A DNA stretch of 64,000 nucleotides, taken from positions 62,001 to 126,000 of the forward strand of contig NZ_JAMOIC010000008.1 in assembly GCF_024448895.1 (NCBI RefSeq), read 5' to 3'. Below are positions 6,444 through 29,771 of this stretch, piece by piece. Position 1 is the stretch's first letter. The number at the start of each line of letters is the position of its first letter. This DNA is from Stutzerimonas stutzeri. GTDB lineage: Bacteria > Pseudomonadota > Gammaproteobacteria > Pseudomonadales > Pseudomonadaceae. The notes under the pieces were generated by a model that was not told the origin of the DNA, did not search any database, and worked only from the letters and a program-made list of their open reading frames with translations. Both the position numbers and the translations under genes were made by a program.

Positions 6444-6468
6444 TTCGTTTGACCCATGGTCAAACGAA
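6444..6468. promoter_or_regulatory. TetR-type operator, site 1
   Basis: Perfect 11-bp arms TTCGTTTGACC and GGTCAAACGAA around CAT, 40 bp upstream of the TetR start at 6508. The position suits autorepression plus control of the divergent P450 operon. It is the most symmetric of five related sites. Confidence 0.75.
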
Positions 6469-6498
6469 CGCCCAGCCTCTGGCAGTCACTATAAGGAG

Positions 6499-6507
6499 AA
6501 TAAGAAC
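6499..6507 (+). promoter_or_regulatory. Hfq/Crc-type A-rich leader (tetR 6508)
   Basis: AATAAGAAC between the AAGGAG ribosome binding site and the GTG start. Confidence 0.45.
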
Positions 6508-7170
6508 GTGAAGAGTTCGGAGCCGGCCGAGTCAGGCAAGCGCAACACGATGAACAAACTGTTGGCTGCCGCGCGCAACGAGTTCGGCAGCAAAGGGCTT
6601 GGCGGTGCGAGGGTGGAAACCATCGCGCAGGAAGCGGGGGTCACCAAGCAGCTGGTCTATCACTACTACGGCTCTAAGGAGAACCTGTTCGTCGCGGTGC
6701 TCGATGAATCGTCTGAAAGCATCATGTCCGAGCTGGTAGCGCTGGAAATCGAGCAGCTGACGCCACCCGCTGCGTTGCGAGCGATGCTTAACCGGTTCTT
6801 CGACCAGTACTGCCACGACCCGCTGCTCGGCGCGCTGGCACTGGAGGGTATCCGTTACCATGATGCCCACGAAACACCGCGCAATCGATTCCTTGAAATG
6901 GCGCCGGGGCTGATTGCCAAACTTGATGCCATCCTCCAACGCGGCGCCGCTACCGGAGATTTCAAGCAGGGAATCAATCCCAGATTGCTGCTGGCCTCAG
7001 CGGCGTTGGTGACTACCGGCTGGTTCACCAATCGTTATTCGATGTCGACCCTGACTGGGCTGGATACCGCCTCCCCCGAGGGCATGGCGATCTGGCGGCA
7101 ACATTCGGCGGATTTCATCCTGGCGGGCATCTCGGTAGCGCCTGGCTGTGAAGACCAGGCGTCCCGATAG
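6508..7170 (+). CDS. TetR-family transcriptional regulator, copy 1
   Basis: A 220-residue TetR-type regulator. The N-terminal helix-turn-helix covers about residues 36-55 (VETIAQEAGVTKQLVYHYYG); the rest is a helical ligand-binding and dimer domain. Translation most likely begins at GTG 6508, with AAGGAG 9 nt upstream. The regulator at 24620-25288 is a close relative along its whole length, including the recognition helix, so both may bind the same operator. A perfect palindrome lies just upstream. It probably represses the P450 operon and other island genes until a pathway intermediate binds. It converges on the CrtI-like gene at 7227. Confidence 0.92.
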   Translation: MKSSEPAESGKRNTMNKLLAAARNEFGSKGLGGARVETIAQEAGVTKQLVYHYYGSKENLFVAVLDESSESIMSELVALEIEQLTPPAALRAMLNRFFDQYCHDPLLGALALEGIRYHDAHETPRNRFLEMAPGLIAKLDAILQRGAATGDFKQGINPRLLLASAALVTTGWFTNRYSMSTLTGLDTASPEGMAIWRQHSADFILAGISVAPGCEDQASR

Positions 7171-7226
7171 GAATCCAGCGAAATCGGCCTGCACTGTAAG
7201 ACGCGCTGCTTGTTCGATAGCTTCCG

Positions 7227-8819
7227 CTATTTGCTTGCCTTGGCCAGGTATTTGGCGACTCGTTTGGCAGCCAGGCGCCCGGCCATTCCGTTTACACCTC
7301 CGCCCGGGTGGATGCCGGCACTGCCAAGGTAAAGTCCTGCCACCGGCAAGGTATTACCGCCCAGTCCATGGGCTGGGCGCATGGTGCTGGAGCGCATGGT
7401 GGTGGTATCGATATGCACGACGCAGCCATTCACCGTATTCAAGCGCGCGGTGAAGTCAGGTGCAGCCTCGACTCGCCGGCCGATGATGTGGCCCTTGAGC
7501 CCCTCGACATATTCCGAAACCTGATCGATGACCTGGTCGGCCACACGCTCTCTGATCGCGTCCCATCCTTCCACGGGATTGACCGGCATCACTGGCGGAT
7601 AAATGTATAAAACGTCCTGGCCAGAGGGTGCCTGAGACGGGTCCGCCGCGCTGGGAGCTGCCATGGTGATGTAGGGAAGTGTCGGTACTTCACCCCGCAT
7701 GCACGCCGCGAAGTTCTCCAGTACAGCCTCCTCGGTGCCAATCAGTAGGCAGGTGTTGCGCAGGTCGACACCGTCACCCCTAACAGCTTCAAACCGAGGC
7801 ACCGATATTTGCCCGCTCAAGGCGACGTCCACTTTCAACGGACCGGAGCCTTTGGCGTTGGCCGGGGCCATTGCGATACGTGTCAACAGGTAGGACGGAA
7901 TCTCACCCGCGCTGACCATCTCCAACGCTACTTTGGGATGACAGCCGGCAATTACCGCTCTCCCGGTAAATTCGCGACCGTCGGCCAATCGCACGCCCTT
8001 GACCTGCCCATCAACAGAGACGATCTCGGCGACCGATGCGCTGACCAATACCTGACCACCAAGCTCTTCAAGCCGGGCCTGCATGGCATTGCTCAGCTGT
8101 TGCATCCCACCTAGCACGCGACCGACGCCGAAGCGATGGAGGAAGCCGAGCAACGCGTAATAGATACCGCCGCCGTCGGCGCTAATGTCACCAGCGAGGC
8201 CGGTCAGCGCACACATCGCGGATATGGTCACGGGATGCTCGAAGCGTTCGCGGGCAGCCTGATGGGCCGAGCCGGTCATCAGCGCCATCAACTCGGGCTT
8301 GAGTTTACGGTTCTTCAGCGCTGAGCCAATCACCTGAAATTTGGCACCCAGATTCAGTTCGGCTGGGTCGGCGCGCATCATCGGGAGCGCGATGTCCAGG
8401 AACATGTCGATGACGTCCATAAACTTGAGAAAAGCCGCTGCGTCAGCCTCGCTGTAACGTCTGATTTCCGCAGCGGTCTTGTTACGGTCTCGCCAGAAAA
8501 TAAGCGATGTGCCATCCGGATGCAGGTAGACATAACCCGGCGCCAGCTCTATTGACCTGAAACCGTGCCGCTCGAGATCAAGTTCCTTCGGAACATGAGC
8601 GTGAACCCGCATCGACATCATGTCCAACGCACAGGGATGAACGAGATGCTCGGGCGCTTCGGGAATCAGGTAACCCGAGGAAGCCATGCCGCCGACTTTG
8701 TCCAGGGCTTCAAGCACCAGTACCTTCTTGCCTTCCAGCCCCAGATAGCAGCCGGCTGACAGGCCGTTAGTGCCGCCGCCAACGATGATCACATCGAAAT
8801 CTGTATTTTTATTATTCAT
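7227..8819 (-). CDS. CrtI/phytoene desaturase-like FAD oxidoreductase
   Basis: A 530-residue flavoprotein. The N-terminal FAD/NAD(P)-binding Rossmann motif is VIIVGGGTNGLSAG (about residues 10-23). The C-terminal signature GLYLGSAGIHPGGGV (near 500) is shared with the partial gene at 1-666. Such enzymes remove hydrogen from, or isomerise, hydrophobic polyenes and related lipids. No signal peptide is visible. It is transcribed leftward as a single gene, converging on tetR. Upstream lie A-rich triplets spanning the start codon and, about 230 bp back, a TetR-type operator. The name carotenoid desaturase should not be assumed, because no carotenoid genes are nearby. Confidence 0.9.
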   Translation of the reverse strand: MNNKNTDFDVIIVGGGTNGLSAGCYLGLEGKKVLVLEALDKVGGMASSGYLIPEAPEHLVHPCALDMMSMRVHAHVPKELDLERHGFRSIELAPGYVYLHPDGTSLIFWRDRNKTAAEIRRYSEADAAAFLKFMDVIDMFLDIALPMMRADPAELNLGAKFQVIGSALKNRKLKPELMALMTGSAHQAARERFEHPVTISAMCALTGLAGDISADGGGIYYALLGFLHRFGVGRVLGGMQQLSNAMQARLEELGGQVLVSASVAEIVSVDGQVKGVRLADGREFTGRAVIAGCHPKVALEMVSAGEIPSYLLTRIAMAPANAKGSGPLKVDVALSGQISVPRFEAVRGDGVDLRNTCLLIGTEEAVLENFAACMRGEVPTLPYITMAAPSAADPSQAPSGQDVLYIYPPVMPVNPVEGWDAIRERVADQVIDQVSEYVEGLKGHIIGRRVEAAPDFTARLNTVNGCVVHIDTTTMRSSTMRPAHGLGGNTLPVAGLYLGSAGIHPGGGVNGMAGRLAAKRVAKYLAKASK

Positions 8820-8830
8820 TCTTTGTTGTT
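8805..8830 (-). promoter_or_regulatory. Hfq/Crc-type A-rich sites flanking start 8819
   Basis: AACAACAAAG just before the ATG, and codons 2-5 reading AAT AAT AAA AAT, so the start codon is embedded between two AAN runs. Confidence 0.6.
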
Positions 8831-9050
8831 CCTATCGGACTTCAACGACATTTGCCCTACGCAAAAGCCGCTGCAATCCGCTGCAAGAGTTCGGTTCAGA
8901 GCCGCAACACCAAGCAACGCGAGCTTGATTACCGCTCCGGCAGAGCAGAAGAAATCGCTATGGAGGAGACGGTTAAAGGTTTTGTCCGTTGCCCGCGTGT
9001 TGGCGCTGAGCAGCACCCTAGCAATAAACGCCACCAGGCAACCCGGCATC

Positions 9051-9071
9051 CGTTTTACTAATGGTAAAAGA
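9051..9071. promoter_or_regulatory. TetR-type operator, site 2
   Basis: CGTTTTACT-AAT-GGTAAAAGA, an imperfect copy of the palindrome at 6444-6468 with the same 3-bp spacer. It lies 232 bp upstream of the CrtI-like gene start at 8819, the only leftward gene it could serve. Confidence 0.55.
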
Positions 9072-9212
9072 CTTGCGTGGTCCGGCGGAGCAGTAATGCT
9101 GCGACGCGTTTTCAGCAGCGCTACCAGCGCCGTTAAAGAATGTAGGCGAGGCAGGCAAGACAAAGCGCAACAACCATGGGGAGTAACAGCCGAAGGGCTA
9201 GGGTGGCGAGTC

Positions 9213-9328
9213 AAAACGGCCGAGGCCCGCGTACGAGCCTACAGCTGTAAATGAGCATGACTCACTTCGTTCGTTCTTCGGGCCGCGATAAATCGCGTTA
9301 GCCACAAGCGGCTTGCTGAGGCCGTTTT
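9213..9328. mobile_element. possible MITE-like remnant
   Basis: AAAACGGCC at 9213-9221 is inverted as GGCCGTTTT at 9320-9328, bounding about 116 bp without a gene. No target-site duplication is visible and no transposase is near, so this is only a suggestion. Confidence 0.25.
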
Positions 9329-9403
9329 TAACGCAGTATTGCCAACACAGGTAGTTTTATAACCGAGCGTGCCAAGAAAGCCGAAAGCGCTCCTAACCCC
9401 GTT

Positions 9404-9489
9404 TTCGCGAGCAAGCTCACTCCTACCAAAGCAGCAGCACTTAACCCGCGCCAACATGTAGCGCATTCCTGTGGAGCGAGGCTTGCGAA
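9404..9489. repeat. pair of degenerate REP-like sequences
   Basis: TTCGCGAGCAAGCTCACTCC at about 9404 and, in opposite orientation, TGTGGAGCGAGGCTTGCGAA ending near 9488. Both resemble the GAGCGAGCTTGCTCGCGA core of Pseudomonas REP elements. The inverted pairing is typical of REP clusters. Confidence 0.55.
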
Positions 9490-9564
9490 CCAAGTGTGAG
9501 GTTGGCAACTAACGGGGCGTCCGGCTCCGCTTTTGCGAGCCGGGCCGCGCCGGCCAGACATTAC

Positions 9565-10383
9565 TTACATGCCTGTACGACCCATCTTTTCAAACAGTGC
9601 ACGCATCGCCACCAGAGACGGGGTGTGGCTACTGAACCCACCATCCGCGACGAGAGTAGTACCGGTCACGAACGAGGACTCATCCGACGCCAGGAACGCG
9701 ACCACATCGGCAATCTGTCTAGGCGTACCCAGTTCGGCTGTGCAATGGTTGTCGCGCATGATTTCCAATAATGGCGCCGGCATTTCATGCTGCGGTGCGA
9801 GGCCGATTTGCACCGCATTGCCACGAATTCCTTTCTTGCCGTACTGGGACGCGACCAGGCGCGGAAGCATCATCAGCGCCGCTTTGGAGGTTGCGTAGCC
9901 TGTCAGCGACATGTCGCCCTGCATCCCCAAACCGGACGTGGCGAAGATGACCGAGCCTTTGCCCTGCTCCAGCATTACCGGAATGGCGTATTTGGTGCAG
10001 AGCACGGCGCCACGCAGATTCACCGCCATGGCACGGTCGAAGGCTTCCATATCCAGGTTGACCAGATCTCGGTCCCGCTGGCGTTGATCGGCGTTCAGCA
10101 CGGCCGCATTGTTGTGCAACACGTCGATCCGACCGAATTTCTCCCTTACCTGGGCGATCATCGCCTTGACGTCTTCCTCGGAAGACACATCGGTACGATA
10201 GCCAAAAGCAGACCTGCCTTGCGCCGATATTGACTCTGCCACTCGGTTGGCGGCGTCGCCGTCGACATCGACTACCGCGACAGACGCTCCATGCTCCGCC
10301 AGCACCCGAGCACATTCAGCGCCCAGCCCGTTGCCACCACCGGTGACGATCGCAACCCGCCCTGCCAGCTTGCCCATGCTCAT
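9565..10383 (-). CDS. short-chain dehydrogenase/reductase
   Basis: A 272-residue classical SDR with GGGNGLG (about residues 15-21), an HNNAAV structural motif, Ser in FATSG (about 150) and the active-site YATSK (about 166-170). The ending VTGTTLVADGG is typical. It probably oxidises a hydroxyl of the pathway intermediate. It is the last gene of the long leftward operon beginning with DUF1302 at 19139. It lies 36 bp after the crotonase gene, suggesting a beta-oxidation-like hydration followed by dehydrogenation. AAGGA 7 nt before ATG sets the start at 10383. It is most like the SDR at 31356-32159. Confidence 0.88.
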   Translation of the reverse strand: MSMGKLAGRVAIVTGGGNGLGAECARVLAEHGASVAVVDVDGDAANRVAESISAQGRSAFGYRTDVSSEEDVKAMIAQVREKFGRIDVLHNNAAVLNADQRQRDRDLVNLDMEAFDRAMAVNLRGAVLCTKYAIPVMLEQGKGSVIFATSGLGMQGDMSLTGYATSKAALMMLPRLVASQYGKKGIRGNAVQIGLAPQHEMPAPLLEIMRDNHCTAELGTPRQIADVVAFLASDESSFVTGTTLVADGGFSSHTPSLVAMRALFEKMGRTGM

Positions 10384-10390
10384 CTGGTAT

Positions 10391-10406
10391 TCCTTATTCT
10401 GTTGTT
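10391..10406 (-). promoter_or_regulatory. Hfq/Crc-type A-rich leader (SDR 10383)
   Basis: AACAACAGAATAAGGA, merging into the ribosome binding site of the SDR starting at 10383. Confidence 0.6.
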
Positions 10407-10419
10407 AGCAATGCCAATC

Positions 10420-11238
10420 CTACTCGCCCGTGAAGCGCGGCTCGCGCCGTTCACTAAAGGCTTGCGCTGCTTCGCGCACATCCTTTGTCGGCGCTAGAAG
10501 GGCAAACAGGTCGAGTTCGAGATTGAGCCCGCTCTTGAGATCCAGCTCCAGCGCAGCCCGGGCCGCCTGCTTTACGAACGCCGAAGCAGCGGGCGGCTTG
10601 CTGGCGATGCGCTCGGCAAAAACCCTGACCTCCTCGACCAGAGTCGCGTTGTCGGCGGCCAGGCGACTGACCAGGCCGATCTGCAATGCCTGCTCCGCAT
10701 TCATGCGGTCGCCCGTCAGCAACATATCGAGGGCGCGCCCCGGCGCCACGACCCGCGAAAGGCGCTGAGTACCCCCACCGCCGGGAATCAGCCCAAGGCC
10801 GGTTTCCGGCAACGCGAAAATTGCATTGGGAGCGGCGAAGCGAATATCGCAAGCCAAAGCAAACTCCAGCCCGCCGCCCATGCAGTAACCCTGGATAGCA
10901 GCGATGACCGGCTTGGCGATCCCATCGAGCGATTCGATCCAGCGCGAACGCTCCATCCGCTGGCGCACCTGCAGGGAGGTTTCTTCACCACGACGTTCCT
11001 TGATATCGGCGCCGGCGCAAAACCCACGCTCGCCTTCACCACGGATGACGATGACCCTCACCTGTGAATCGTTGTCGAGCAACTGAAGCGCTTGAGGTAC
11101 ACCCTGACGGATGCTGTCGTTGATCGCATTGATCTGGTCTGGTCGAGTCAACACAACCCAGCCAACCGAGGCGCCGCGCTCTACCCTTACCGACTCGTTG
11201 ATAACCAGCGGTGCCTGCTGATTTTCTTCGGCGCTCAT
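10420..11238 (-). CDS. enoyl-CoA hydratase/isomerase (crotonase) family protein
   Basis: A 272-residue crotonase-fold protein. Visible are the oxyanion-hole stretch FCAGADIKE (about residue 75), IQGYCMGGGLEFALACD with one catalytic-position Glu, and LPETGLGLIPGGGGTQRL with the second. Both acid residues of a true hydratase are therefore present. It should hydrate an enoyl-CoA intermediate. The start at 11238 overlaps the stop of the VOC gene in ATGA, indicating translational coupling, with GGAG upstream. No CoA ligase or acyl-CoA dehydrogenase gene is seen in the island, so the acyl-CoA substrate must be made elsewhere. Confidence 0.9.
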   Translation of the reverse strand: MSAEENQQAPLVINESVRVERGASVGWVVLTRPDQINAINDSIRQGVPQALQLLDNDSQVRVIVIRGEGERGFCAGADIKERRGEETSLQVRQRMERSRWIESLDGIAKPVIAAIQGYCMGGGLEFALACDIRFAAPNAIFALPETGLGLIPGGGGTQRLSRVVAPGRALDMLLTGDRMNAEQALQIGLVSRLAADNATLVEEVRVFAERIASKPPAASAFVKQAARAALELDLKSGLNLELDLFALLAPTKDVREAAQAFSERREPRFTGE

Positions 11239-12206
11239 ACCGAACACTCCTCGAACTCGAACACCTGACCATCCAACTCGTTCGGATCGATTTTGATAAG
11301 CGATTTGCCGCCTACCGCTGCGGACGATTCGATCCATTCAAAGGCTGTACCGCGAGCGCGCAAATCTTCAGCCTTGGCGGCCAGATCATTAACGCCAATA
11401 CGGATGTAGTACGGACCAGGCCCCCAGTTATTCACATAATGGCCGGCGTCGGTATTCCAGTAAGTCGCCTCGAGCACGTCGAGCGTGGCGCTATTGGCGA
11501 CAGTGAAGCCCATGCGCGCGCGGCGATAACCTTCACTGGCGATATTCTCCACCGGGCACGACGGCTCCCAATCAAGATTGGTGGAAAGCTTGCGCAGCGT
11601 TTCATCGAGATCGCGCACCAGGAAGCCACGCGCAGTGACACGCACCATGTCGCCCGGCTTTTGTTCACGTGGCTGCGCAGGTGGCGTTGCGTAGGTTTCC
11701 GGCGGCATTTGCAACGGCTCGGTAGGCATGATTTCGATGCACAGGCCGCCGTCCACGGATGGCTCGTAGTACGGCTTTTCCGGTGTCGCGCCCAACCACA
11801 GGCGGTCGAACGGCATCTCCGGAGTGCGCTGGGCCATACGGAACGGCAGGCGACGACGCATCAATTTGCTGACCAAGGCATCGAACTTGTCGCCATGCAG
11901 CGCGAGCACGATCGAATGGGTAATCATGGGCCGATGGTGCCCCTGATAATCCTTCAGGCTTTCCAAGAAATCATGAAACAGCGGATCGCCCGGATTCGGA
12001 CGATCCAGATGCCACTGCGGCTCGATACGGGTAGGTGAAACCGCCAGCGACTTGTGCACGCGCAGAAAATGCGCAATGTACGGATGGTTATCGAACGCCT
12101 GGCGCCAGCGCTCATGCTTGAAGATGCCGAGTTTATCCACCAGCTTTTCCGTCATCCCGTCCGGATCCGGAACCATCATGTCGGCACTCATCAATAACTC
12201 GAACAT
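11235..12206 (-). CDS. two-domain VOC (glyoxalase/dioxygenase) superfamily protein
   Basis: A 323-residue protein whose C-terminal half (from VRVTARGFLVRDLDETL, about residue 187) has the beta-alpha-beta-beta-beta pattern of vicinal-oxygen-chelate proteins, ending in a Glu-rich strand QVFEFEE. The N-terminal half looks like a second, more diverged module. Family members include extradiol dioxygenases, glyoxalases, epimerases and binding proteins. Metal ligands cannot be assigned by eye, so the reaction is open. It is coupled to the crotonase gene by an ATGA overlap and follows the MMPL transporter gene by 79 bp. GGGAGAGG precedes the ATG. Confidence 0.75.
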   Translation of the reverse strand: MFELLMSADMMVPDPDGMTEKLVDKLGIFKHERWRQAFDNHPYIAHFLRVHKSLAVSPTRIEPQWHLDRPNPGDPLFHDFLESLKDYQGHHRPMITHSIVLALHGDKFDALVSKLMRRRLPFRMAQRTPEMPFDRLWLGATPEKPYYEPSVDGGLCIEIMPTEPLQMPPETYATPPAQPREQKPGDMVRVTARGFLVRDLDETLRKLSTNLDWEPSCPVENIASEGYRRARMGFTVANSATLDVLEATYWNTDAGHYVNNWGPGPYYIRIGVNDLAAKAEDLRARGTAFEWIESSAAVGGKSLIKIDPNELDGQVFEFEECSV

Positions 12207-12285
12207 ATCCCTCTCCCTTCAATATCGCGCCATGGCTCTGGGCCTGGCTTTACAGTCGGTGGAAGCGCCAACCGGGCGCCTCCGA

Positions 12286-14787
12286 TCAATGAGCGGAAGC
12301 CGCGTCAGCTAATTTTTTTTTCCGGGCAGCCTTTTCGACCGGCGTATCAAGCATGGCCGGCGACTCCGGTGAGGCCGAAGTAGTCTTTGGATTCAGCAGG
12401 AAATGCGACAGAGCCGGGATCAGCACCAAAGCGCCAAGCATGTTCCACAGGAACATGAACGTCAGAAGGATGCCCATGTCGGCCTGGAATTTGATTGGCG
12501 ACCAAGCCCAGGTGATCACGCCAGCCGCCATAGTCAAGCCGATCAGAGCGACTACTCTGCCGGTGAAGTCCAGCGACCGGCGATATGCAACTGCAAGCGA
12601 GCCGCCCCGTTCCTGCACGGCAATCTGCACACTGAGCAAATACAGCGCGTAATCCACGCCTACCCCCACGCCAACCGCGATGACCGGCAGGGTCGCGACT
12701 TTCAGGCCAATACCGAGCCAGACCATCAACGCCTTGCAGATAATGGTCGTCATGATCAAAGGAATGAGCGCGACGATGGTGGCGCGAATGCTGCGGAACG
12801 TCAGCAGGCAGAGCAAAGCAGTAGCGCCATATACCGCCAGGTACATGGTGATGATGCCTTTCTCCACCTCGATGTTTGTCGCCGCTTCGATACCCGCGTT
12901 GCCTGCGGCCAGGAGAAACTCGACCGGGCGTTCTGAGTCAGCTGCGGTGTTGTTTTCGGCGGCAAAGGCCTCGACCACCCCCATCACGCGACGCAGCGTG
13001 TCCGCCTTGTGATCAGTGAGATAGGCGATCAGCGGTGTAACCGAGCACTGCTGGTTGGTGATGCCGGGCGAAGAAATCATCGCGGCATCGACCGACGCGT
13101 TGGTGATGGCCTGGTCGCGGCTGATGGTCAGCCACTTGCCGCTGCCTTCAGCCATGCCTGATGTCACGAAACGGGTCGATTCAGCAAGCGAACTGGTGGT
13201 CTGCACGCCAGGTGTCTGACGCAGTTGCCATGCAAGCCGGTCCATGGTCTGCAGCGTCTGGTACAACCGGCAGCTGTCCGGATCGGTTTTCATGATCACG
13301 ACGAACTGGTCGCTGGACAGGCCATAGTGGCTGGTGATGTAAGCGTTGTCCTGGTTGTAGCGCGAGTCGGCGCGTAGCTCTGGCGCACCTGGATCCAGAT
13401 CACCGATCTTGAGGTCGAGCATGACGATGCTGCAGATGACAGTGACGACAACCGATAGCGAAATCACCGCAATCGCCCAGCGCCGCTCGGTGAAACGGTC
13501 CAGGCCGTGCCAGATATGACCAAGCCAGTTGCGGTTTTCGGCTCCGGCACGCTCTTTCTCGAGAGCGATCAACGCCGCTTTTTTGCTCACGCCGATATAG
13601 GACAGCGCGACGGGTATCAGCAGTAGTTTGGTAAATATCAGTACCGCAACACCGATGCTGGTGGTTATCGCCAGATCGCGGATTACCGGAATGTCGATGA
13701 TCACCAGTACCGCGAAACCGACAATGTTGCACAGTAGTGCGGTAAGTCCGGTGAGAAAGAGACGGCGGAAGGTATAGCGCGCCGCCACATACTTATGCGT
13801 ACCGCGGCCAATGTCTTGAAGAATACCGTTCATCTTCTGCGTGCCATGGGAGACACCAATGGCGAAGATCAGAAACGGTACCAGGATCGAATACGGATCG
13901 AGATCATATCCAAGCAGCTGCATTAGACCGAGAAGCCATACGACCCCGGCCACCGCTACGCCGATCAACAAAATCGTGCTGCGCAGACAACGCATGTAAA
14001 AGTAGACGAAGATCCCGGCGATCAGGACGGAGATGGCAAAGAAAACCATCACGCTGTACAGCCCGTCGATCAAATCGCCGACCAACTTACTGAAACCGAC
14101 GATATGAATGCTGATCTTGTCGCTTTCGAAGGAGCGGATCTTCTCTTCCAACTGGTCGGAGAATTCACCGTAATTGAGCGGCTCTCCGGTCTGAGGATGC
14201 GAGTCGAGCAACGGGGCGACAATCATGCTCGACTGTCCATCATTGGCGACCAGATTACCGATGATTCCGGCACGAGAAATGTTGCGCCGTAGTTTCGTTA
14301 TCGACGTCTCGCTGCCGTCATAGTCGGAAGGCATTACCGCACCGCCACTGATTCCATCCTCGGTGACTTCCTTCCAACGGACAATCGGCATCCACAGCGA
14401 TTTCATCCAGGAGCGGTCGACTCCAGGGATGAGATACAGCGTATCGTTTACTTCCTGCAGAACCTTCAGGTATTCCGGATCATAGATATCGCCCTGCTTG
14501 TTTTCCACAACGATACGAATGCTGTTGCCCAAACCAGGGAGCTGATCCTTATATGCGAAGTAGTTCTTGATATAGGGACTGCTGCTCGGAATCATTCTTT
14601 CGAAGCTGGCATTTACGTCTATGCGAGCAGCGAAGTAACCAAGTACAACGGTGGCCAGCAGGCAGACCACGAGCACAAGTACGCGGTTATTGAAAATAAC
14701 ACGCTCGAAAAACCCGCCGGACGACTTGTCGAAATCGCGAACATCCGGAACTACGGGCATTCCACTATTGTACTTTTGATCTACCAT
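12286..14787 (-). CDS. MMPL/RND-superfamily transporter
   Basis: An 833-residue inner-membrane protein with two repeats, each a membrane helix plus a large periplasmic loop and a five-helix bundle (about 12 helices in all). The family stretches FAIGVSHGTQKMNG and AVGVGVGVDYALYLL are visible near residues 310 and 710. Such proteins partner with DUF1302, DUF1329 and YCF48-like proteins to move hydrophobic molecules across the envelope; that exact set precedes it here. I prefer start 14787, preceded by GTGAG and AACAAGAAA; ATG 14808 in the same frame lacks a ribosome binding site. The C-terminal 30 residues are basic and cytoplasmic. Confidence 0.92.
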   Translation of the reverse strand: MVDQKYNSGMPVVPDVRDFDKSSGGFFERVIFNNRVLVLVVCLLATVVLGYFAARIDVNASFERMIPSSSPYIKNYFAYKDQLPGLGNSIRIVVENKQGDIYDPEYLKVLQEVNDTLYLIPGVDRSWMKSLWMPIVRWKEVTEDGISGGAVMPSDYDGSETSITKLRRNISRAGIIGNLVANDGQSSMIVAPLLDSHPQTGEPLNYGEFSDQLEEKIRSFESDKISIHIVGFSKLVGDLIDGLYSVMVFFAISVLIAGIFVYFYMRCLRSTILLIGVAVAGVVWLLGLMQLLGYDLDPYSILVPFLIFAIGVSHGTQKMNGILQDIGRGTHKYVAARYTFRRLFLTGLTALLCNIVGFAVLVIIDIPVIRDLAITTSIGVAVLIFTKLLLIPVALSYIGVSKKAALIALEKERAGAENRNWLGHIWHGLDRFTERRWAIAVISLSVVVTVICSIVMLDLKIGDLDPGAPELRADSRYNQDNAYITSHYGLSSDQFVVIMKTDPDSCRLYQTLQTMDRLAWQLRQTPGVQTTSSLAESTRFVTSGMAEGSGKWLTISRDQAITNASVDAAMISSPGITNQQCSVTPLIAYLTDHKADTLRRVMGVVEAFAAENNTAADSERPVEFLLAAGNAGIEAATNIEVEKGIITMYLAVYGATALLCLLTFRSIRATIVALIPLIMTTIICKALMVWLGIGLKVATLPVIAVGVGVGVDYALYLLSVQIAVQERGGSLAVAYRRSLDFTGRVVALIGLTMAAGVITWAWSPIKFQADMGILLTFMFLWNMLGALVLIPALSHFLLNPKTTSASPESPAMLDTPVEKAARKKKLADAASAH

Positions 14788-14796
14788 TTTCTTGTT
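14788..14796 (-). promoter_or_regulatory. Hfq/Crc-type A-rich leader (MMPL)
   Basis: AACAAGAAA directly abutting ATG 14787, supporting that start over the ATG at 14808. Confidence 0.5.
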
Positions 14797-14817
14797 CTCA
14801 CTAAGCATGCCGCGTTA

Positions 14818-20366: not shown

Positions 20367-20478
20367 TAGAGCGGCCCACCGCCCCTCGCTGATCTCATGA
20401 CGGTCAATGTTTCGTTATCTGGCGAGGTATCACGAGCACTCGCTGGCATCGCTGGCGCTGACATACTCAGGACGCTCC

Positions 20479-22394: not shown

Positions 22395-22405
22395 GGCATT
22401 CCAAT

Positions 22406-22418
22406 CCTTTTCTTGTTT
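22406..22418 (-). promoter_or_regulatory. Hfq/Crc-type A-rich leader (amidohydrolase)
   Basis: AAACAAGAAAAGG, 11 nt ahead of ATG 22394 and containing its ribosome binding site. Confidence 0.55.
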
Positions 22419-22631
22419 GAGGGTCCCCTTAGGGATTTCTCGGTTCTGATTACGCCTGCACTAGAACATGCGCACCAGCAGAATATAGACATATACTCAA
22501 TATATGTTCACAAGAATAGATACCAGAGGCAGAACATCCGCACTGTCACCCGAACATCACCCGCGTGATGGCATGCTCTGATGACGCTCTGGTAATGCCC
22601 ACCTACCTCTGTATGCCAAGGACAAACAGCC

Positions 22632-23522: not shown

Positions 23523-24414
23523 TGAGGAACTGGCGAAACGCTTCAGCCGGTTGCGGCAACTCCGTCTCGCGGCGCCAGATCAAGCCCAGTTCCATGGGTG
23601 GGATGGCGTCAACCAGGGGCCGCGCCTCAATCTTCTTGCCTTCCAGCGACCAGGCCCGATAGAGCATGTCGGAGAGAATCGTAACGCCGAAGCCATGGGC
23701 GACCAGCCCTCGCAATCCTTCCATCGAAGACGTCCGGAACGCCACATTCGGCTCCAGACTACGAGAACTCCAGTAGCGATACGTGGAGCTCTCCCCTTCA
23801 TCCACGGTGGGCAGAATGTAAGGATGACGCGCCACGTCTTCGAGTGTAATAACCGAGGCTTGCATCAGCGGGTGTTCGCTGGCGAGCCACAATTGGCGTC
23901 GCGAGCGAATCAGCACCTGATGCTCGAAACGCTGCAGGTTCTCGGTATTGGAGACGATGGAAAGCCCCATATCCAACCGTCCCGCAGCAATGGCGTCTTC
24001 GATGACAGGCCGATCCATATCGACCAGATCGATTTCCACCTGCGGATAGCTCCGCTTGAACCGCGCCAGCAGCGACGGCAGAAAATAGCCGAGCACCGTG
24101 TAAGAAGCCCCGACGCGAATCACCCCTTGGATCGAATGGCTCAGAAAAAGCGGCTCGCTGAGCGCGTCCTGCAGCGTGTCGAGAATATGGCCCGCATGCT
24201 GGGCGAACTTATGCCCCTCTGCGGTCAGGGTGACGCCGTAAGGCAGCCGGTCGAACAACCGAACGCCCAATGTCTGTTCAAGTTGCAGAACGGCGGCGGT
24301 AATGGCCGATTGCGATACATGCACCTTCACCGCTGCCTGGGAAAGCTGCCCTGCCTCAGCCGCGGCCATGAAGTAGCGCAGCTGGCGCATCGATATGTCT
24401 TTGCCCTTCGCCAT
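23503..24414 (-). CDS. LysR-family transcriptional regulator
   Basis: A 303-residue LysR-type regulator with the N-terminal winged helix (QLSQAAVKVHVSQSAITAAV, about residues 22-41) and a two-lobed periplasmic-binding-like effector domain from about residue 90. Start 24414 has AAGGG 7 nt upstream; ATG 24432 is less well placed. LysR regulators usually control a divergent neighbour, but here the divergent side holds only the 205-bp gap before the convergent end of tetR 24620. Its target may be the patatin gene or a distant gene. Confidence 0.9.
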   Translation of the reverse strand: MAKGKDISMRQLRYFMAAAEAGQLSQAAVKVHVSQSAITAAVLQLEQTLGVRLFDRLPYGVTLTAEGHKFAQHAGHILDTLQDALSEPLFLSHSIQGVIRVGASYTVLGYFLPSLLARFKRSYPQVEIDLVDMDRPVIEDAIAAGRLDMGLSIVSNTENLQRFEHQVLIRSRRQLWLASEHPLMQASVITLEDVARHPYILPTVDEGESSTYRYWSSRSLEPNVAFRTSSMEGLRGLVAHGFGVTILSDMLYRAWSLEGKKIEARPLVDAIPPMELGLIWRRETELPQPAEAFRQFLIMACAS

Positions 24415-24619
24415 CCCGTTACCCTTCACCAACTCAGTGCGACCACTCAGGCTAGTCGCGCACCATACAGCGAACGCAAGATTCGGTCACGGTGTCGAGC
24501 AGGCGTTATAAGCGCAGCCCACGTTACGCTCTATGACGTAACGGTGAGATGACCATGAGCGCTCCAATGAATCGAGCGCCCCTAACGAGACCTGCGCGAA
24601 ACCCGGCAGAACGCGATGA

Positions 24620-25288
24620 TCAATCGGCGCGAGGGCTGCGCGGTTCTTCTCCTTGCGTCGCGACGATGCTGGCCAGAATGAAATCGGCACAGTGTTTGCG
24701 CCAGGTTTCCATACCTTCCTCGGAAGCAGTATCGAGGCCGACCAGCGCTGAGGTGGAGTAAGCGTTGGTAAACCAGCCGGTAGCGATGAGAGCCGCGGTG
24801 GCAAGCAGCAGCCGAGGCTGGGTGTCCGGCTTGAAACTACGGCATTCAATGCCTCGCTGGACGATCCTGCCAACCTTATCGACCAGGGCCGGTGCCAGTT
24901 CCAGGAAGCGGTTGCGCGGCGTTTGATTGTAATCGTGATAGCGAACGCCCTCCTGCGCCAACCTGGCGAGCAAGGGATCGTTGCGATATTGATCGAAGAT
25001 GTGGTTGAGCAAGGCTCGAAGCGCTTGCGTCGGGGTCAGCTGCTCGACATCGAAATCGACCCACCCGGTCATGAGTCTGTCAGAGGTTTCGTCAAGCACC
25101 GCGACAAACAGGCCTTCCTTCGATCCGTAATAGTGGAAGATCAGCTGTTTGGTAACGCCAGCATTGCGGGCTATTTCGTCAATACGCCCGCCGGCCAGTC
25201 CCTTGTTGCAAAACTCCTGATGCGCGGCGGCAAGCATTCGGCTCATTGTCTGACGTTTATCGGACTTCGAGCGGGTCTGTGTTTGCAT
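24620..25288 (-). CDS. TetR-family transcriptional regulator, copy 2
   Basis: A 222-residue regulator, paralogous to the TetR protein at 6508-7170 through the HTH (IDEIARNAGVTKQLIFHYYG, about residues 36-55) and the ligand domain (shared YHD..(Q/E)TPRNRFLE and TGWFTN). ATG 25288 has AAAGGAG 9 nt upstream; the preceding in-frame codon is TTG. Its upstream region holds two copies of the TetR-type palindrome, so it probably represses itself and the divergent kinase operon. Near-identical recognition helices suggest overlapping regulons with copy 1, perhaps answering to different ligands. Confidence 0.92.
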   Translation of the reverse strand: MQTQTRSKSDKRQTMSRMLAAAHQEFCNKGLAGGRIDEIARNAGVTKQLIFHYYGSKEGLFVAVLDETSDRLMTGWVDFDVEQLTPTQALRALLNHIFDQYRNDPLLARLAQEGVRYHDYNQTPRNRFLELAPALVDKVGRIVQRGIECRSFKPDTQPRLLLATAALIATGWFTNAYSTSALVGLDTASEEGMETWRKHCADFILASIVATQGEEPRSPRAD

Positions 25289-25372
25289 CTGCAACGCTCC
25301 TTTGCCACGACATCAGGCGGTTTTATATATATGCAACACGTTGCCATGTTGGCTACGCGCGAGCCGTCTTTT

Positions 25373-25393
25373 TGTTTTACCAATAGTCAACCG
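25373..25393. promoter_or_regulatory. TetR-type operator, site 3
   Basis: TGTTTTACC-AAT-AGTCAACCG: left arm 8/9 and right arm 7/9 to the consensus, with the same 3-bp spacer. It lies 85 bp upstream of tetR copy 2. Confidence 0.5.
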
Positions 25394-25522
25394 CCAGTGT
25401 TTCCGGTTTGGTAAAACTTGATATAGCCCCGGCGCCTTCGAGCAGGTCCGATTGACCAACGCCCTCAAGTATCCACCACAGCTATTTTCCGATGAGCATT
25501 TCGAGACTCCAAAACAAACACG

Positions 25523-25543
25523 CATTTGACCGCCGGTCAAACA
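25523..25543. promoter_or_regulatory. TetR-type operator, site 4
   Basis: CATTTGACC-GCC-GGTCAAACA, with a perfect 7-bp inverted core TTTGACC/GGTCAAA identical to site 1. It lies about 155 bp before the kinase start at 25697. Confidence 0.7.
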
Positions 25544-25686
25544 ACTCAAGCGTATCGAGAGCGTGTTTGCCTTGTTGACGCAGCGCGCCTGATCAACACT
25601 CGGGTTTACGCCGAATACGTGAGTAAGTGCGTTTCCGCTGTCGTACGGTTTCTACAGGAAGCCGCTTATATTTCGCCTTCAGAGAT

Positions 25687-25696
25687 AAAAACAAAA
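25687..25696 (+). promoter_or_regulatory. Hfq/Crc-type A-rich leader (kinase 25697)
   Basis: AAAAACAAAA abutting the ATG, just after a weak AGAG ribosome binding site. Confidence 0.5.
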
Positions 25697-26893
25697 ATGA
25701 CCAGTATCGAAGAGTTGCGCACGGCGCGCCCTTATCCTGCACGTCAGGGCAGGCTCCCGCGTCACCTGCAAGACGTTACGCCCCATTGGTTGACGAGCCT
25801 GCTTCAGAACCGCTATCCCGGCATCGTGGTAAATGACTTTGAAGAAATTCAGATTCGAAACGGCCATACCACCAAGCTACGGCTCGCGCTAGACCTCAAC
25901 GAGATTGGCCTGGCCGCTGGCATTCCGCGCAACGTTTGCCTCAAGTCCAACTGGTCGGAAGGGTTCGAGAGCGGCGAGATCTGCGAGTTGGAGGCACGCT
26001 TCTACCACTTCATGCGCGAGCGTCTGCACACGCCGGTGCCGGACAGCTATTTTTCCGACTGGGATGGCGATGGTGGGGGTCGGGGCGTCGTCGTGATGGA
26101 AGACCTCGGAATGGCGCCAGGCCAGTTCGGTCACAGTACCCATCACCTCGGCGTCGATGGCGTGGCCCAGGGGCTGGAGTCACTGGCGATGTTGCATGCC
26201 GCACTGTGGGGAAGTTCTGAGCTCAAGGCACAGAGCTGGCTGCCCACGTCCATGGATCACCCGGTCGACTACGATCAGTTTTTACGCATGTACGACTACA
26301 TTCGGCTGAACCTGCGCAAGCCTGAGTACCAGGCCATCCTGCCGAAATGGATGTATGAAACACCGGAGCTGTTTGGGCATGCCTTTGACGAGTTGCGCGC
26401 TTATGAACTTGCGCAGGAGACCCCCATCTGCCTGGTTCATGGCGATTCTCACCAGGGCAACAGCTTTCTGCGCGACAGCGGCGAGCGGGTCTGGCTTGAT
26501 TGGCAGCTTGTGCGCAAGGGGCGGCCATGGCGCGATATTGCCTATTTCATGCTCGGGGCGCTGACAATCGAGGAGCGGCGGGCTTCGGCCTGGGATCTGG
26601 TCAAGGTCTACCGCGAGAAGCTGATCAGCCTGGGCGCCGAAGGCGTACTTGGACAGGACGCCGCCTGGGAACAATTTCGCCGCTGGCCCATGTATGGCAT
26701 GCAGGCATGGCTGGCCAATGTCGATGAGTGGGGCCAGGACGGGCGCATCATGGTGGAGCGATTCTTCGCCGCGGCGGAGGATTTCGAAACCGTAAAAACG
26801 CTGACCGCCGGCAAAGCGCCACGCCGCCACGTGAAGCTGGGCGAGGGCGCGCGCCAGGTTCTCCCGCAGTTCCGGCATTTGCTGGACGATTGA
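25697..26893 (+). CDS. APH/CHK-fold phosphotransferase (ecdysteroid-kinase-like)
   Basis: A 398-residue protein of the aminoglycoside-phosphotransferase/CHK kinase-like superfamily. The catalytic loop reads CLVHGDSHQGNSFL (about residues 248-261), with the Brenner-type HGD and Asn intact. The metal-binding strand is VWLDWQ, followed by GRPWRDIAYFM. An N-lobe Lys lies in VCLKSNW. Relatives phosphorylate small alcohols: ecdysteroids in insects, and hydroxyacyl-CoAs for the LvaA/ACAD10-type enzymes. It probably phosphorylates a hydroxylated pathway intermediate rather than conferring antibiotic resistance. It leads a rightward operon with a SnoaL-like and a phosphatase-like gene, behind TetR operators. 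Confidence 0.87.
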   Translation: MTSIEELRTARPYPARQGRLPRHLQDVTPHWLTSLLQNRYPGIVVNDFEEIQIRNGHTTKLRLALDLNEIGLAAGIPRNVCLKSNWSEGFESGEICELEARFYHFMRERLHTPVPDSYFSDWDGDGGGRGVVVMEDLGMAPGQFGHSTHHLGVDGVAQGLESLAMLHAALWGSSELKAQSWLPTSMDHPVDYDQFLRMYDYIRLNLRKPEYQAILPKWMYETPELFGHAFDELRAYELAQETPICLVHGDSHQGNSFLRDSGERVWLDWQLVRKGRPWRDIAYFMLGALTIEERRASAWDLVKVYREKLISLGAEGVLGQDAAWEQFRRWPMYGMQAWLANVDEWGQDGRIMVERFFAAAEDFETVKTLTAGKAPRRHVKLGEGARQVLPQFRHLLDD

Positions 26894-26915
26894 TGGCTTG
26901 GATCATCGTGTAACG

Positions 26916-26930
26916 AACAAAAACAATAAA
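26916..26930 (+). promoter_or_regulatory. Hfq/Crc-type A-rich leader (SnoaL 26946)
   Basis: AACAAAAACAATAAA: five consecutive AAN triplets directly before the CGGAG ribosome binding site. Confidence 0.65.
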
Positions 26931-26945
26931 CGGAGTGCAATCGAA

Positions 26946-27356
26946 ATGACGACGCAACTGAATGCTGAAAGTATCCAACGTTTTATGAAGGGCCAGGTCT
27001 CGGCATGGAACGCCCACGATCGCGAGGCCTTTCTTGACTGCTATCGCCAAATAGCGCCTGAGTCGCTGGTCATCGAATATGCTGGTCGCACTGACACGCG
27101 TGATGGCTGGTTTATCCTCGAAGAGATGTTCGACAAGCACAATGCGGATATTTCTCTGGAAGTGGTGGAGACCATCTACAACGGCAACGACGTTGCGGCT
27201 CATCATCGCAATTGCCTGAATGGTACCGGGCTGGCCATTGAAAGCATCGAAACCTACCGTTTCTCACCAGGCAAACTACAGGTGTGCTATTTCCTTAAAC
27301 CGCCGGTGACCGACAACCTGGATCTCACGCAATTTCGGGGATTCGCCTCCGCTTGA
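26946..27356 (+). CDS. SnoaL/NTF2-like protein
   Basis: A 136-residue NTF2-fold protein, related to the one at 1063-1419 (shared start pattern KGQVSAWNAHDREAFLDCY against HGQVECWNNGDKEGFFEHY, and a common IESIETYRF/IETIELYRF strand). It has an extra C-terminal tail of about 20 residues. Function is unknown; the fold suits a small hydrophobic ligand. It follows the kinase gene by 52 bp and precedes the phosphatase-like gene, so it may handle the phosphorylated intermediate. ATG 26946 is the first start downstream of CGGAG. Confidence 0.8.
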   Translation: MTTQLNAESIQRFMKGQVSAWNAHDREAFLDCYRQIAPESLVIEYAGRTDTRDGWFILEEMFDKHNADISLEVVETIYNGNDVAAHHRNCLNGTGLAIESIETYRFSPGKLQVCYFLKPPVTDNLDLTQFRGFASA

Positions 27357-27399
27357 TCACATTAGGCGAACGTTCGAGCATTCAGATATGAGAGCCCCG

Positions 27400-28173
27400 A
27401 TGAATCTGCAGTTAGCAGGCACCGATAATTTTCGTAGTCTCAAAGGCTTGCCGGCCCATGACGGCCGGCGCATCGCCGGGCATACGTTGCTACGGTCCGA
27501 CCAGCTGCACATGCTTGGCACCGAGGGCTGGGGAATCCTCAAGACCCTTGGCGTAAAGACCGTATGTGACCTGCGTAGCGAGGGTGAGCGCCAGCGGACG
27601 CCGAACAATCTGCCTGCAGAACTTGAGCAGCTGGCACTTGAGGTCACCGGCGACATGCGCGCCGACAAAAGCGTGTCGAGTTTGTTGATTGAAAGCCCGG
27701 ATCTTGCCGGCGCCGAGGCCATGATGTTCGAGGTATACCGGCGTCTGCCGGGCATGCTGGCGCCGCATCTGCCGAAACTGTTCGGGTTGTTCGAGACGGG
27801 TAAGGTGCCCGTGCTGGTTCATTGCGCAGCGGGCAAGGACCGCACCGGTTTTGCCGTCGCGGTTATTCTTCACGCGCTCGGCGTAGCGCGGGAAGTCATT
27901 GTCGCTGACTATCAGCTGTCGGCCCGCCGAATGGTCGACGCCAGCGACGTCCGGCGAGAGCTGATGAGTACGCTGGTCAGCAACATGATCGGCAAGCCCT
28001 GTCCTGACGAAGCGGTCGACGCGATCATGGATGCCCGCCCCGAGTACCTGCAAACGGCCTACGACTGCGTGGACAAGCACTATGGATCGATGGACGCCTA
28101 TATCGAGACGTGTGTCGGCCTGGATGCGTCGGGCCTGAATAGTCTCAGGGACCGTTATCTCACCGCTGACTGA
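27400..28173 (+). CDS. tyrosine-phosphatase-like protein (Y_phosphatase3 type)
   Basis: A 257-residue protein with the Cys-based phosphatase P-loop VHCAAGKDRTGFAVA (HCx5R, Cys near residue 143). Upstream is the DLRSEGER segment (near 59) of the single-domain Y_phosphatase3/LipA-like group. The nucleophile and Arg are intact. Members act on phosphoproteins, phosphoinositides or small phosphoesters. Sharing an operon with an alcohol kinase suggests that it removes or recycles a phosphate from a pathway compound, but this is inference. The start at 27400 follows TGAGAG; ATG 27388 is an alternative. No signal peptide is visible. Confidence 0.85.
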   Translation: MNLQLAGTDNFRSLKGLPAHDGRRIAGHTLLRSDQLHMLGTEGWGILKTLGVKTVCDLRSEGERQRTPNNLPAELEQLALEVTGDMRADKSVSSLLIESPDLAGAEAMMFEVYRRLPGMLAPHLPKLFGLFETGKVPVLVHCAAGKDRTGFAVAVILHALGVAREVIVADYQLSARRMVDASDVRRELMSTLVSNMIGKPCPDEAVDAIMDARPEYLQTAYDCVDKHYGSMDAYIETCVGLDASGLNSLRDRYLTAD

Positions 28174-28313
28174 TGCCCGACTGACCGTTCGTAGCCGATC
28201 CTTCCCTCTTAAGCACATTCCCCCCGATGGCGTTCGGGCGATTGCTTGCGAATTCGCCCCTGGAGCGTTTCGCCACATGGCGTCGGTGTGGTGTGTAAGC
28301 AGGGCACTGCTGC

Positions 28314-28348
28314 AAAAAAAAGCTGCTCCCCCCGAGGGGTTGAGCAGC
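28314..28348 (-). terminator. rho-independent terminator of the 344-aa gene
   Basis: Read leftward: GCTGCTC, a GC-rich loop, GAGCAGC, then eight T residues. It lies about 115 bp after the stop of the leftward gene 28463-29497. The hairpin faces the wrong way to serve the rightward phosphatase gene. Confidence 0.85.
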
Positions 28349-28462
28349 GAAACACCAGTCGCTCCTGGTTCATTGGGCTCGCTCACCACTTCGGGCAAAT
28401 CGAGCCGCTGACTCGTACCGCTTAATCAGCCATCGCAGCAGGCCGCTTCGCCCGCTGCGCGA

Positions 28463-29497
28463 TTAGTTGATATCGCTGCCGGGGACGTTGCGTGCCGCGC
28501 CATTGCGCCGGTCCGATTCACCCCAGGCCACCCAGTGATCCGGCTCGCGAGTATCACCCACTCGCCGCCAGCGGCCTTCCTGCTGTGCTGTGACGGGAAA
28601 GCCGCCAACGAAGTCGATCATTTCGCCGCGCGGATCGGGCAGGAATTCCCATTCTTCACGGCCGTCCAGCGTGATTTTGGCAGCCTCCAGAAAGTAGCTC
28701 CCGTCCTTGTGCTTGGTTACGCATTCGATGTCGGTGGTGGTACGCACTTCGCCCTTTTCATTCTGGAAAATCGCGTAGCCGAGGTGGTCATGGCCAACCA
28801 TGAACGAGCCGACATCGTAGGTGCCGTCCTTGTAGACCGTGGCAAAGGACCACCACAGCACGTGCATCTTGTTGTTCACCACCAGGTCTTTCTTGAAGTG
28901 AATCGCGCCGCCCTCGGCCATGTACACCTGGTCGAGCAGGATGGCGCCCTTGACCGGACGCCCTTCGCAGACGCCGCTGACATCCCAGATCTGGGAAACG
29001 TAAAAGGTGCCCCACTCGACGCCCGGCAAGTACCACTGCATACCGTTGCCGAGCAGGCGGCCTTCGAGCTGGAACAGGTTGTTCTCTTTCCAGGTGAAGG
29101 TTTCGCTGTTGGCGGTCAATTCCCATGGATGGCCGACGTCATCCGGCTGGTTGGTCCAGCGGACGGTATCGCCTTGCAGCGACAACGCCGGAGCCGGCGT
29201 CACGCCGCGTTCCGCCATGCGTGCCTGGTCCATGCGGATGTTCTTGCCGTCGATGCGGGTGGACAGATAGAAGAATTTGGTCGGGTTCGGCGTGCCGGTT
29301 GGCGCCATGACCGAACGGGTGAACGAATAGATATGTCCTTCTTCGTCACGAACCGAGCCGAACGGCATGCTCTTGCTCAACTGCAAGCCGAAAAAGCCAC
29401 GGCCACCATGCATCGACTCGCCGGTCACCTTGTAGGGCGCGACCAGGGTTTGATAGGCGAAATCGCCTCGCTCGGGGATCTTGGAAAAAGTCTTCAT
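28463..29497 (-). CDS. conserved protein of unknown function, copy 2 (344 aa)
   Basis: Close full-length paralogue of the protein at 3725-4753, collinear from PERGDF near residue 8 to the ending GRWRRVGDTREPDHW and RNVPGSD. Trp- and Gly-rich, predicted mostly beta, with no signal peptide. Unlike copy 1 it stands alone, with its own terminator and an A-rich leader, and is divergent from the second DUF1329 gene. The TetR-type operator at 29751-29771 lies in the shared upstream region. Two copies in two differently built operons suggest a central role in the pathway. Confidence 0.8.
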   Translation of the reverse strand: MKTFSKIPERGDFAYQTLVAPYKVTGESMHGGRGFFGLQLSKSMPFGSVRDEEGHIYSFTRSVMAPTGTPNPTKFFYLSTRIDGKNIRMDQARMAERGVTPAPALSLQGDTVRWTNQPDDVGHPWELTANSETFTWKENNLFQLEGRLLGNGMQWYLPGVEWGTFYVSQIWDVSGVCEGRPVKGAILLDQVYMAEGGAIHFKKDLVVNNKMHVLWWSFATVYKDGTYDVGSFMVGHDHLGYAIFQNEKGEVRTTTDIECVTKHKDGSYFLEAAKITLDGREEWEFLPDPRGEMIDFVGGFPVTAQQEGRWRRVGDTREPDHWVAWGESDRRNGAARNVPGSDIN

Positions 29498-29506
29498 CTT
29501 TTATCT

Positions 29507-29515
29507 CTTGTTATT
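29507..29515 (-). promoter_or_regulatory. Hfq/Crc-type A-rich leader (344-aa protein)
   Basis: AATAACAAG, 9 nt before ATG 29497, followed by AGATAAAAG. Confidence 0.55.
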
Positions 29516-29750
29516 GAGTCGTTGAACGGAGGGTTACGCAGAGGCCTGGACCCGTTCGAATTTAGATACAGACGCCTGAAGAACCAGCTTGCAATAAGGG
29601 AAAAATGGAAACATGGGCATGGCTTTAACGTTTGTTCTTATTAAATTCAACGTAACGCCGGTTTCAAATCATCAGGCGCTTCGTGGTTTCGGCTGACGGG
29701 GTTCAGGTTAGGACCAACTGCCGTTTTTAACATCACTAAATATCCGCTTT

Positions 29751-29771
29751 CGTTTTACCGTGGGTGAAACG
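29751..29771. promoter_or_regulatory. TetR-type operator, site 5
   Basis: CGTTTTACC-GTG-GGTGAAACG, 8 of 9 paired bases, with the same 3-bp spacer as the other four sites. It lies 98 bp upstream of DUF1329 and 254 bp upstream of the leftward 344-aa gene. Confidence 0.7.

Follow-up and report, generated by a model that had tools for sequence, protein, structure and literature searches.

A palindromic operator family, probably read by TetR-type repressors, in a catabolic gene island of Stutzerimonas stutzeri

A long perfect palindrome close to a tetR gene is a typical feature of TetR autoregulation, and for RutR, a member of the TetR family, the operator consensus is TTGACCANNTGGTCAA. Here we analyse a 64,000-nucleotide stretch of Stutzerimonas stutzeri DNA (the window; C8:62001-126000, where C8 is the 197,182-base contig NZ_JAMOIC010000008.1 of assembly GCF_024448895.1), whose gene island carries palindromic sites at the promoters of a cytochrome P450 gene, a CrtI-like oxidoreductase gene, two tetR genes and further operons. 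Most likely these sites all represent a single TetR-family operator, with the half-site YCGTTTKACC and a spacer of 3 bp, that is read by the island's own, ligand-released repressors. The operator family is real, and so, very probably, is a conserved regulon built on it. The operator is a new instance of a well-known class of regulatory system, and among the papers searched we found neither a description of this operator nor a described counterpart of the large pathway to which it belongs.

Three TetR paralogues of the same subfamily are encoded on the contig:

6508..7170, + strand: tetR1, 220 aa, GTG start (PF00440, PF17938)
24620..25288, - strand: tetR2, 222 aa (PF00440, PF17938), product 59-60% identical to TetR1
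Window coordinate 73440, 9.4 kb beyond the window: third paralogue, TetR-C (PF17938, PF00440)

All three are predicted TetR family repressors by both of their domains, with PF00440 (the TetR helix-turn-helix) scoring 53.5, 45.8 and 52.9 bits for TetR1, TetR2 and TetR-C (cut-off 24) and PF17938 (TetR_C_29, the C-terminal ligand and dimer domain) scoring 62.9, 62.9 and 58.4 bits (cut-off 26.2). They resemble other TetR_C_29 regulators in these domains and, for TetR1 and TetR2, in the palindrome near their own gene, but the best PDB match (2qtq) reaches only E 6e-14, and the listed NCBIfam TetR models score far below cut-off. No characterised close relative was found among the PDB and NCBIfam matches. 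With RutR the system shares the TetR family and the half-sites TTGACC and GGTCAA; it differs in a spacer of 3 instead of 4 and in arms that extend outward to CG. On the RutR model TetR1 and TetR2 obtain 42 and 45.5 bits against a cut-off of 368, and neither is therefore a RutR; TetR1 likewise falls outside KstR (21.3 bits, cut-off 280). A likeness to KstR and steroid catabolism regulons lies in the KstD-like enzyme encoded in the series downstream of site S5.

In gene content the island recalls AmeABCD, described in passages of PMC6394551 as an RND exporter of Castellaniella defragrans linked to monoterpene tolerance. The same four gene kinds, DUF1302, DUF1329, YCF48-like and RND (the last two named by eye), stand at 12.3-19.3 kb of the window, but this AmeABCD-like series lacks an operator of the present family. 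A P. aeruginosa island with DUF1302, DUF1329, RND and TetR genes is reported in passages of PMC7145413 that do not mention an operator.

Operator sites in the window, contig and genome

The original prediction, made from the letters of the window, proposed five intergenic sites with the shared consensus CGTTTKACC-N3-GGTMAAACG and an invariant 3-bp spacer. A pattern search of the window recovered all five, intergenic and with this spacer, and their positions upstream of the P450/tetR, CrtI-like, tetR2, kinase and 344-aa/DUF1329 genes were borne out. The consensus itself stood in a looser form, all five sites lying within 3 mismatches of it and only the first matching it literally (1/5). A sixth site in the window, absent from that list, and two sites beyond the window are added here:

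6445..6467 (core 6446-6466): operator S1, perfect palindrome TCGTTTGACC-CAT-GGTCAAACGA, between P450 and tetR1 (pattern, matrix, conservation)
9050..9072 (core 9051-9071): operator S2, a decayed copy in this genome, 230 bp upstream of the CrtI-like gene (pattern, matrix, relatives)
25372..25394 (core 25373-25393): operator S3, 83 bp upstream of tetR2 (pattern, matrix)
25522..25544 (core 25523-25543): operator S4, 152 bp upstream of the EcKL kinase start (pattern, matrix)
29750..29772 (core 29751-29771): operator S5, between the divergent 344-aa and DUF1329 genes (pattern, matrix)
36006..36028: operator S6, 255 bp upstream of an AraC-type regulator (matrix 12.7)
Window coordinate 67566, beyond the window: operator S7, upstream of a DUF1329 gene (matrix 25.4)
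Window coordinate 71125, beyond the window: operator S8, between an SDR and a second P450 gene (matrix 27.2)

A search with CGTTTKACCNNNGGTMAAACG at up to 3 mismatches returns exactly five matches in the window, with 0, 3, 3, 2 and 1 mismatches for S1-S5, and dinucleotide-shuffled windows give a mean of 0.06 matches and a maximum of 1, a count that is circular, since the consensus was derived from the same sites. A non-circular palindromic matrix was built from 10 distinct 23-mers upstream of tetR1 orthologues at 29 non-Stutzerimonas Pseudomonas loci. Its top six scores in the window are S1 (35.1), S5 (22.7), S4 (13.9), S6 (12.7), S3 (11.7) and S2 (4.9), the next being 2.2; in 30 Markov resamples of the window the best score averages 6.8 (largest 16.0) and the fifth-best 0.6. 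On matrix score S1 and S5 are convincing individually, whereas S3, S4 and S6 are convincing jointly and not one by one. S6 is identical at 23/23 positions in three relatives, where its flanks are only 83-84% identical. The overlap of the six sites with listed genes is 0 bp, and intergenic sequence makes up 13% of 1498-49997. S4 falls within a longer TTG-start frame (25526), yet kinase homology begins only at 25697. The S4 palindrome was also flagged by a terminator scan (1 of 3 matches; 0.7 expected), which we take as a by-product of its symmetry.

When the matrix was run over the whole of contig C8, S1-S8 were the top eight hits and the ninth scored 4.7, just under S2; S7 and S8 lie near TetR-C. 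The genome search suggested along with the prediction was carried out with this matrix on the contig and with a longer pattern on the 5.39-Mb genome, and the sites cluster in the island. At up to 2 mismatches the longer pattern finds 5 sites, all within the island, and at up to 3 mismatches 10, of which 7 are in the island, with 11 for the reversed-pattern control. By the longer pattern at up to 2 mismatches, the operator class is not found elsewhere in the genome; the motif thus stands at several promoters and is rare outside them, as expected of a regulon. The short core at up to 2 mismatches was rejected as a genome test (32 sites vs 39 for the reversed pattern), and the informative thresholds are the short core at up to 1 mismatch or the longer pattern. 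Two 1-mismatch core matches on contig C2, one within a coding frame and one intergenic with a score of 8.8, above that of S2, were both taken as chance, the second provisionally. No site was detected by the matrix at the DUF1302-DUF1329-YCF48-RND operon (12.3-19.3 kb) or at the 37-49 kb operons, and the regulon is therefore smaller than the whole island.

Conservation across TetR loci and family genomes

We fetched 62 loci encoding TetR1 relatives (1.19 Mb; numbered L below), many of which are near-copies. They hold 60 core sites at up to 1 mismatch, 50 of them distinct with their flanks, vs 0 for the reversed pattern; at exactly 2 mismatches the counts are 9 and 7. At least one core site (up to 1 mismatch) is present in 47/62 loci. 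Genes with a homologue in the window were mapped onto the loci, and 58/60 core sites precede such a gene by no more than 700 bp, none inside one, the other 2 having no mapped gene nearby. The contexts are P450/tetR1 (32), CrtI alone (13), CrtI/tetR1 (3), CrtI/DUF1329 (2), phosphatase/DUF1329 (2), a 342-aa gene/tetR1 (1), EcKL (1), the side of an Orf152 homologue (3) and the vicinity of an SDR gene (1). L043 and L045, which have no site at this threshold, carry 2-mismatch sites at the same place; for the Halopseudomonas/Marinobacter-type loci L055, L057, L059, L061, L062, L065 and L067 the sites of the genome fall outside the fetched stretch, always with one at CrtI; and the genomes taken as those of L056 and L058 (G187 and G193) have sites. 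No core site was found in the fetched stretches of the distant loci L074-L077 (33-41% identity).

P. bohemica (L053) has an operator site upstream of EcKL too. In L051 and L053 a site precedes the DUF1329 gene, and its other neighbour there is the phosphatase gene. In two genomes (G227, G237) the P450 gene beside S1 is absent and a 342-aa gene adjoins instead. The window has a long intergenic stretch (9100-9540) between CrtI and SDR2, a spacing that varies in relatives; where only about 60-130 bp separate the two genes, which holds for most of L020-L041, the CrtI site was not found. As to the loci themselves, L016 is filed under an alphaproteobacterial metagenome-assembled genome and encodes a TetR1 97% identical to that of the window, in the same gene order; it is probably a mis-binned Stutzerimonas contig. 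In L017 (8303-9575; Stutzerimonas sp. S1) the P450 matches in two pieces, and at G237:C11:31962-34390 the match to the GMC and ALDH genes is split into several segments, some of them reversed.

In an alignment of the P450-tetR1 intergenic region (27 sequences including the window), conservation is highest at the operator over the 330/624 columns covered; here and at the loci above, the motif is kept at orthologous promoters. Most of the 27 sequences also share a conserved ATGGTA block (TACCAT on the complementary strand), located about 30 bp from S1 towards the P450 gene. If this block were a -10 box, S1 would by our reading of the alignment lie near -42 to -64 of the P450 start; with the operator preceding the P450 promoter while also sitting at that of tetR, the TetR proteins could be activators or dual regulators. 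We hold this to be quite unlikely: a scan found no sigma-70-like promoter, the supposed P450 start position is read from the alignment, and the abstract of PMC3511530 describes the majority of studied TetR proteins as repressors.

Across 298 family genomes (numbered G), in which TetR1/TetR2 relatives were counted at E ≤ 1e-50 and the operator as the long pattern at up to 1 mismatch, 25 have a TetR relative, 24 the operator and 23 both. The operator is accordingly found in 23/25 TetR genomes vs 1/273 others (Fisher p 5e-31), and the reversed pattern in 6 genomes (Fisher p 0.41). The two exceptions with a TetR and no site at this threshold, G153 and G184 (equated with G298), have weaker sites at CrtI/DUF1329, and G153 has one at the 342-aa gene as well. 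In the genome with a lone site and no TetR (G271), the site falls within a pobA-like frame, recognised by eye, and was discarded. Among 12 genomes chosen via their TetR loci, 17/19 sites at up to 2 mismatches are at pathway genes; the reversed control gave 6. The association of the operator with the pathway is near-exclusive.

Several observations nevertheless weigh against assigning these sites to the island's TetR proteins, or against individual sites. The 25 genomes with TetR are also precisely the ones that hold the CrtI-like and P450 genes, so that co-occurrence marks the pathway and does not single out TetR as the binder; as proof of TetR binding it was rejected. S2 has a matrix score (4.9) at the background level of this genome, and we accept it because the orthologous site in relatives has an exact core (G227, G210, G211 and G237; relatives carry CCGTTTTACCAACGGTAAAAGAG). 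The best three scores of the reversed matrix on contig C8 are 12.5, 8.7 and 5.8, the first of them equal to the level of S6 and S3, and sites under about 13 (S6, S3, S2) therefore need comparative support. Scans of three intergenic regions found no sigma-70-like promoter at which an operator could be seen to overlap with RNA polymerase. One genome (G214:C6:202611) has a second site, with 1 mismatch and a score of 21.2, and no window-gene homologue within the 14 kb fetched, and L137 and L140 have 2-mismatch sites that are not close to any mapped pathway gene. Halopseudomonas-type loci and L049-L054 lack a site at the tetR promoter and have it instead at CrtI or DUF1329, at a distance of 1.5 to about 23 kb; autoregulation is therefore not general. 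Finally, only 8/14 residues of the recognition helix are alike between TetR-C and TetR1, and no operator site was found at the TetR-C promoter.

That the site tracks the whole pathway and not TetR alone, and that some genomes have a tetR without its own site, would also fit binding by another pathway regulator, be it the LysR protein encoded at 23.5 kb, the AraC protein at 36.3 kb or one encoded off this contig. We judge this very unlikely, as a LysR or AraC homologue is unmapped in many site-bearing loci (e.g. L020-L042, about 20 kb each), each of the 25 family genomes that have the pathway encodes a TetR, and S1, at 40 bp from tetR1, has the form that is typical of TetR autoregulation.

TetR paralogues, gene modules and predicted regulation

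The recognition helices of TetR1 and TetR2 are nearly the same, as had been predicted (VTKQLVYHYYGSKE vs VTKQLIFHYYGSKE, 12/14 residues equal). KQLVYHYY was among the search peptides for the TetR loci, so that conservation of the helix across distant loci is partly an artefact; the DNA sites are unaffected by this. A covariation of helix and operator was considered and rejected: the TetR1 helix of P. bohemica is altered (VTKQLIHHYYGTKE), but similar off-consensus half-sites occur with a normal helix in L043 and L045. In the tree, TetR2 clusters with the TetRs of the phosphatase/DUF1329 modules of P. bohemica and NGEE_A_bin41 with moderate support (93/81), which makes the paralogue duplication look older than this island. 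Another TetR-type protein (window 49377-49997, 206 aa, type assigned by eye) is encoded beside GMC/ALDH genes; it had no match to the TetR2 query at E 1e-50 and no high-scoring operator nearby.

In the mechanism that we propose, dimers of the TetR_C_29-type proteins TetR1, TetR2 and TetR-C would occupy the operators when substrate is absent and so repress the P450, CrtI-like, kinase, DUF1329/KstD and AraC units at their promoters and, beyond the window, those of the DUF1329 and second P450 genes. Through S1 and S3, TetR1 and TetR2 may limit their own synthesis, and the AraC gene would be a second-tier target. A pathway compound or a derivative of it would release the repressors, so that the units open together. 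Each paralogue would form part of a separate gene module that has operator copies of its own, and operators so alike would probably permit some cross-binding. What we observe directly is the sites, where they lie, how far they are conserved and how nearly exclusive they are to this pathway; TetR binding, repression, the ligand and cross-binding are inferred from sequence.

One regulon run by two paralogous repressors had been predicted. The finding of one operator family, located at promoters and linked to tetR-bearing catabolic operons, agrees with this; the number of components does not, for there are eight sites and three TetRs, and their arrangement is modular. Genome G237 lacks the block tetR2-EcKL-SnoaL-phosphatase-344aa-DUF1329-SDR-KstD-MFS together with S3-S6; LysR there adjoins AraC, and S1, S2, S7 and S8 are kept. 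No tetR2 was found elsewhere in that genome at E ≤ 1e-50, the other genes of the block having been sought within 80 kb. P. bohemica has the two kinds of module on separate contigs, module 1 on C27 and one of the tetR2 type (L053) on C55, each with its own tetR and sites. Both cases favour modules with their own repressor and would be expected if the island held three insulated local circuits, each TetR reading only the sites of its own module, the sites being alike through shared ancestry and no single regulon existing. The divergence of TetR-C, which is only 42% identical to TetR2 and 45% to TetR1, points the same way. We give such insulation a substantial chance, though one short of even, since site lists compared by eye show no consistent half-site difference between modules, a likeness that makes cross-binding possible. 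Moreover, three genomes with one TetR detected each at E ≤ 1e-50 (G058, G153, G177) have sites at CrtI/DUF1329 and also at a second DUF1329 or a 342-aa-type gene, which suggests that one TetR can serve both promoter classes, with the proviso that more distant TetRs may escape the E limit. Cross-binding to some degree is predicted, and is probably to be ranked above strict insulation. More doubtful is a many-sensor, one-operator gate on a very long catabolic route, in which three anciently diverged TetR paralogues (42-60% identical) would compete for one operator that is present at eight promoter regions spanning 65 kb. Each paralogue would then respond to a different intermediate, and the pathway would open fully only once all repressors are titrated.

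On our preferred reading, that of one TetR-type operator family read by the island's own repressors, the set of co-induced operons can be predicted from the operator, and the inducer could be sought with reporter fusions to S1 or S5. The operator offers a direct experimental handle on a large pathway, present in 25/298 family genomes, whose substrate is probably a hydrophobic compound, a class weakly inferred from the AmeABCD-like RND series and the KstD-like enzyme. Three paralogous repressors with similar sites are, in addition, a natural system in which to test how insulation between paralogues is retained or lost.

Genes beside the operators and in the wider region

The genes adjoining the sites in the window are the following:

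4802..6079, - strand: cytochrome P450, first of a P450/342-aa protein/SDR/MFS series (PF00067)
7227..8819, - strand: CrtI-like FAD oxidoreductase (PF01593 above cut-off; CrtO/CrtI NCBIfam models below)
25697..26893, + strand: EcKL/APH-type kinase, first of the kinase series (PF02958, PF01636)
26898..27356, + strand: SnoaL-like small protein, after the kinase (PF12680 just under cut-off)
27388..28173, + strand: tyrosine-phosphatase family protein (PF13350)
28463..29497, - strand: 344-aa protein resembling the 3725-4753 product, without Pfam or PDB match
29869..31230, + strand: DUF1329 protein, first of a DUF1329/SDR/KstD-like/MFS series (PF07044)
32117..33949, + strand: FAD enzyme related to 3-ketosteroid delta1-dehydrogenases (KstD-like)
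36284..37216, + strand: AraC-type regulator downstream of S6 (AraC-type models, the 25 listed all below their own cut-offs)

The name AttH for the 342- and 344-aa proteins was dropped, as it has no database support. Catabolic-looking genes seem to span about C8:15-146 kb, with no additional operator above background. Among acyl-CoA dehydrogenase-like and thiolase-like frames 38 kb before the window, C8:22602-23852 encodes a P450 64% identical to that of the window. The tetR1 region gave 3 weak partial matches to plasmids. Downstream of the island, at C8:163344-175151 (window +101 to +113 kb), a set of genes that by eye is conjugative type IV secretion-like suggests a neighbouring or fused conjugative element. 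Within the window and after the island, the genes at 57180-62955 look by eye like a leucine/isovalerate (liu-type) cluster with a biotin carboxylase.

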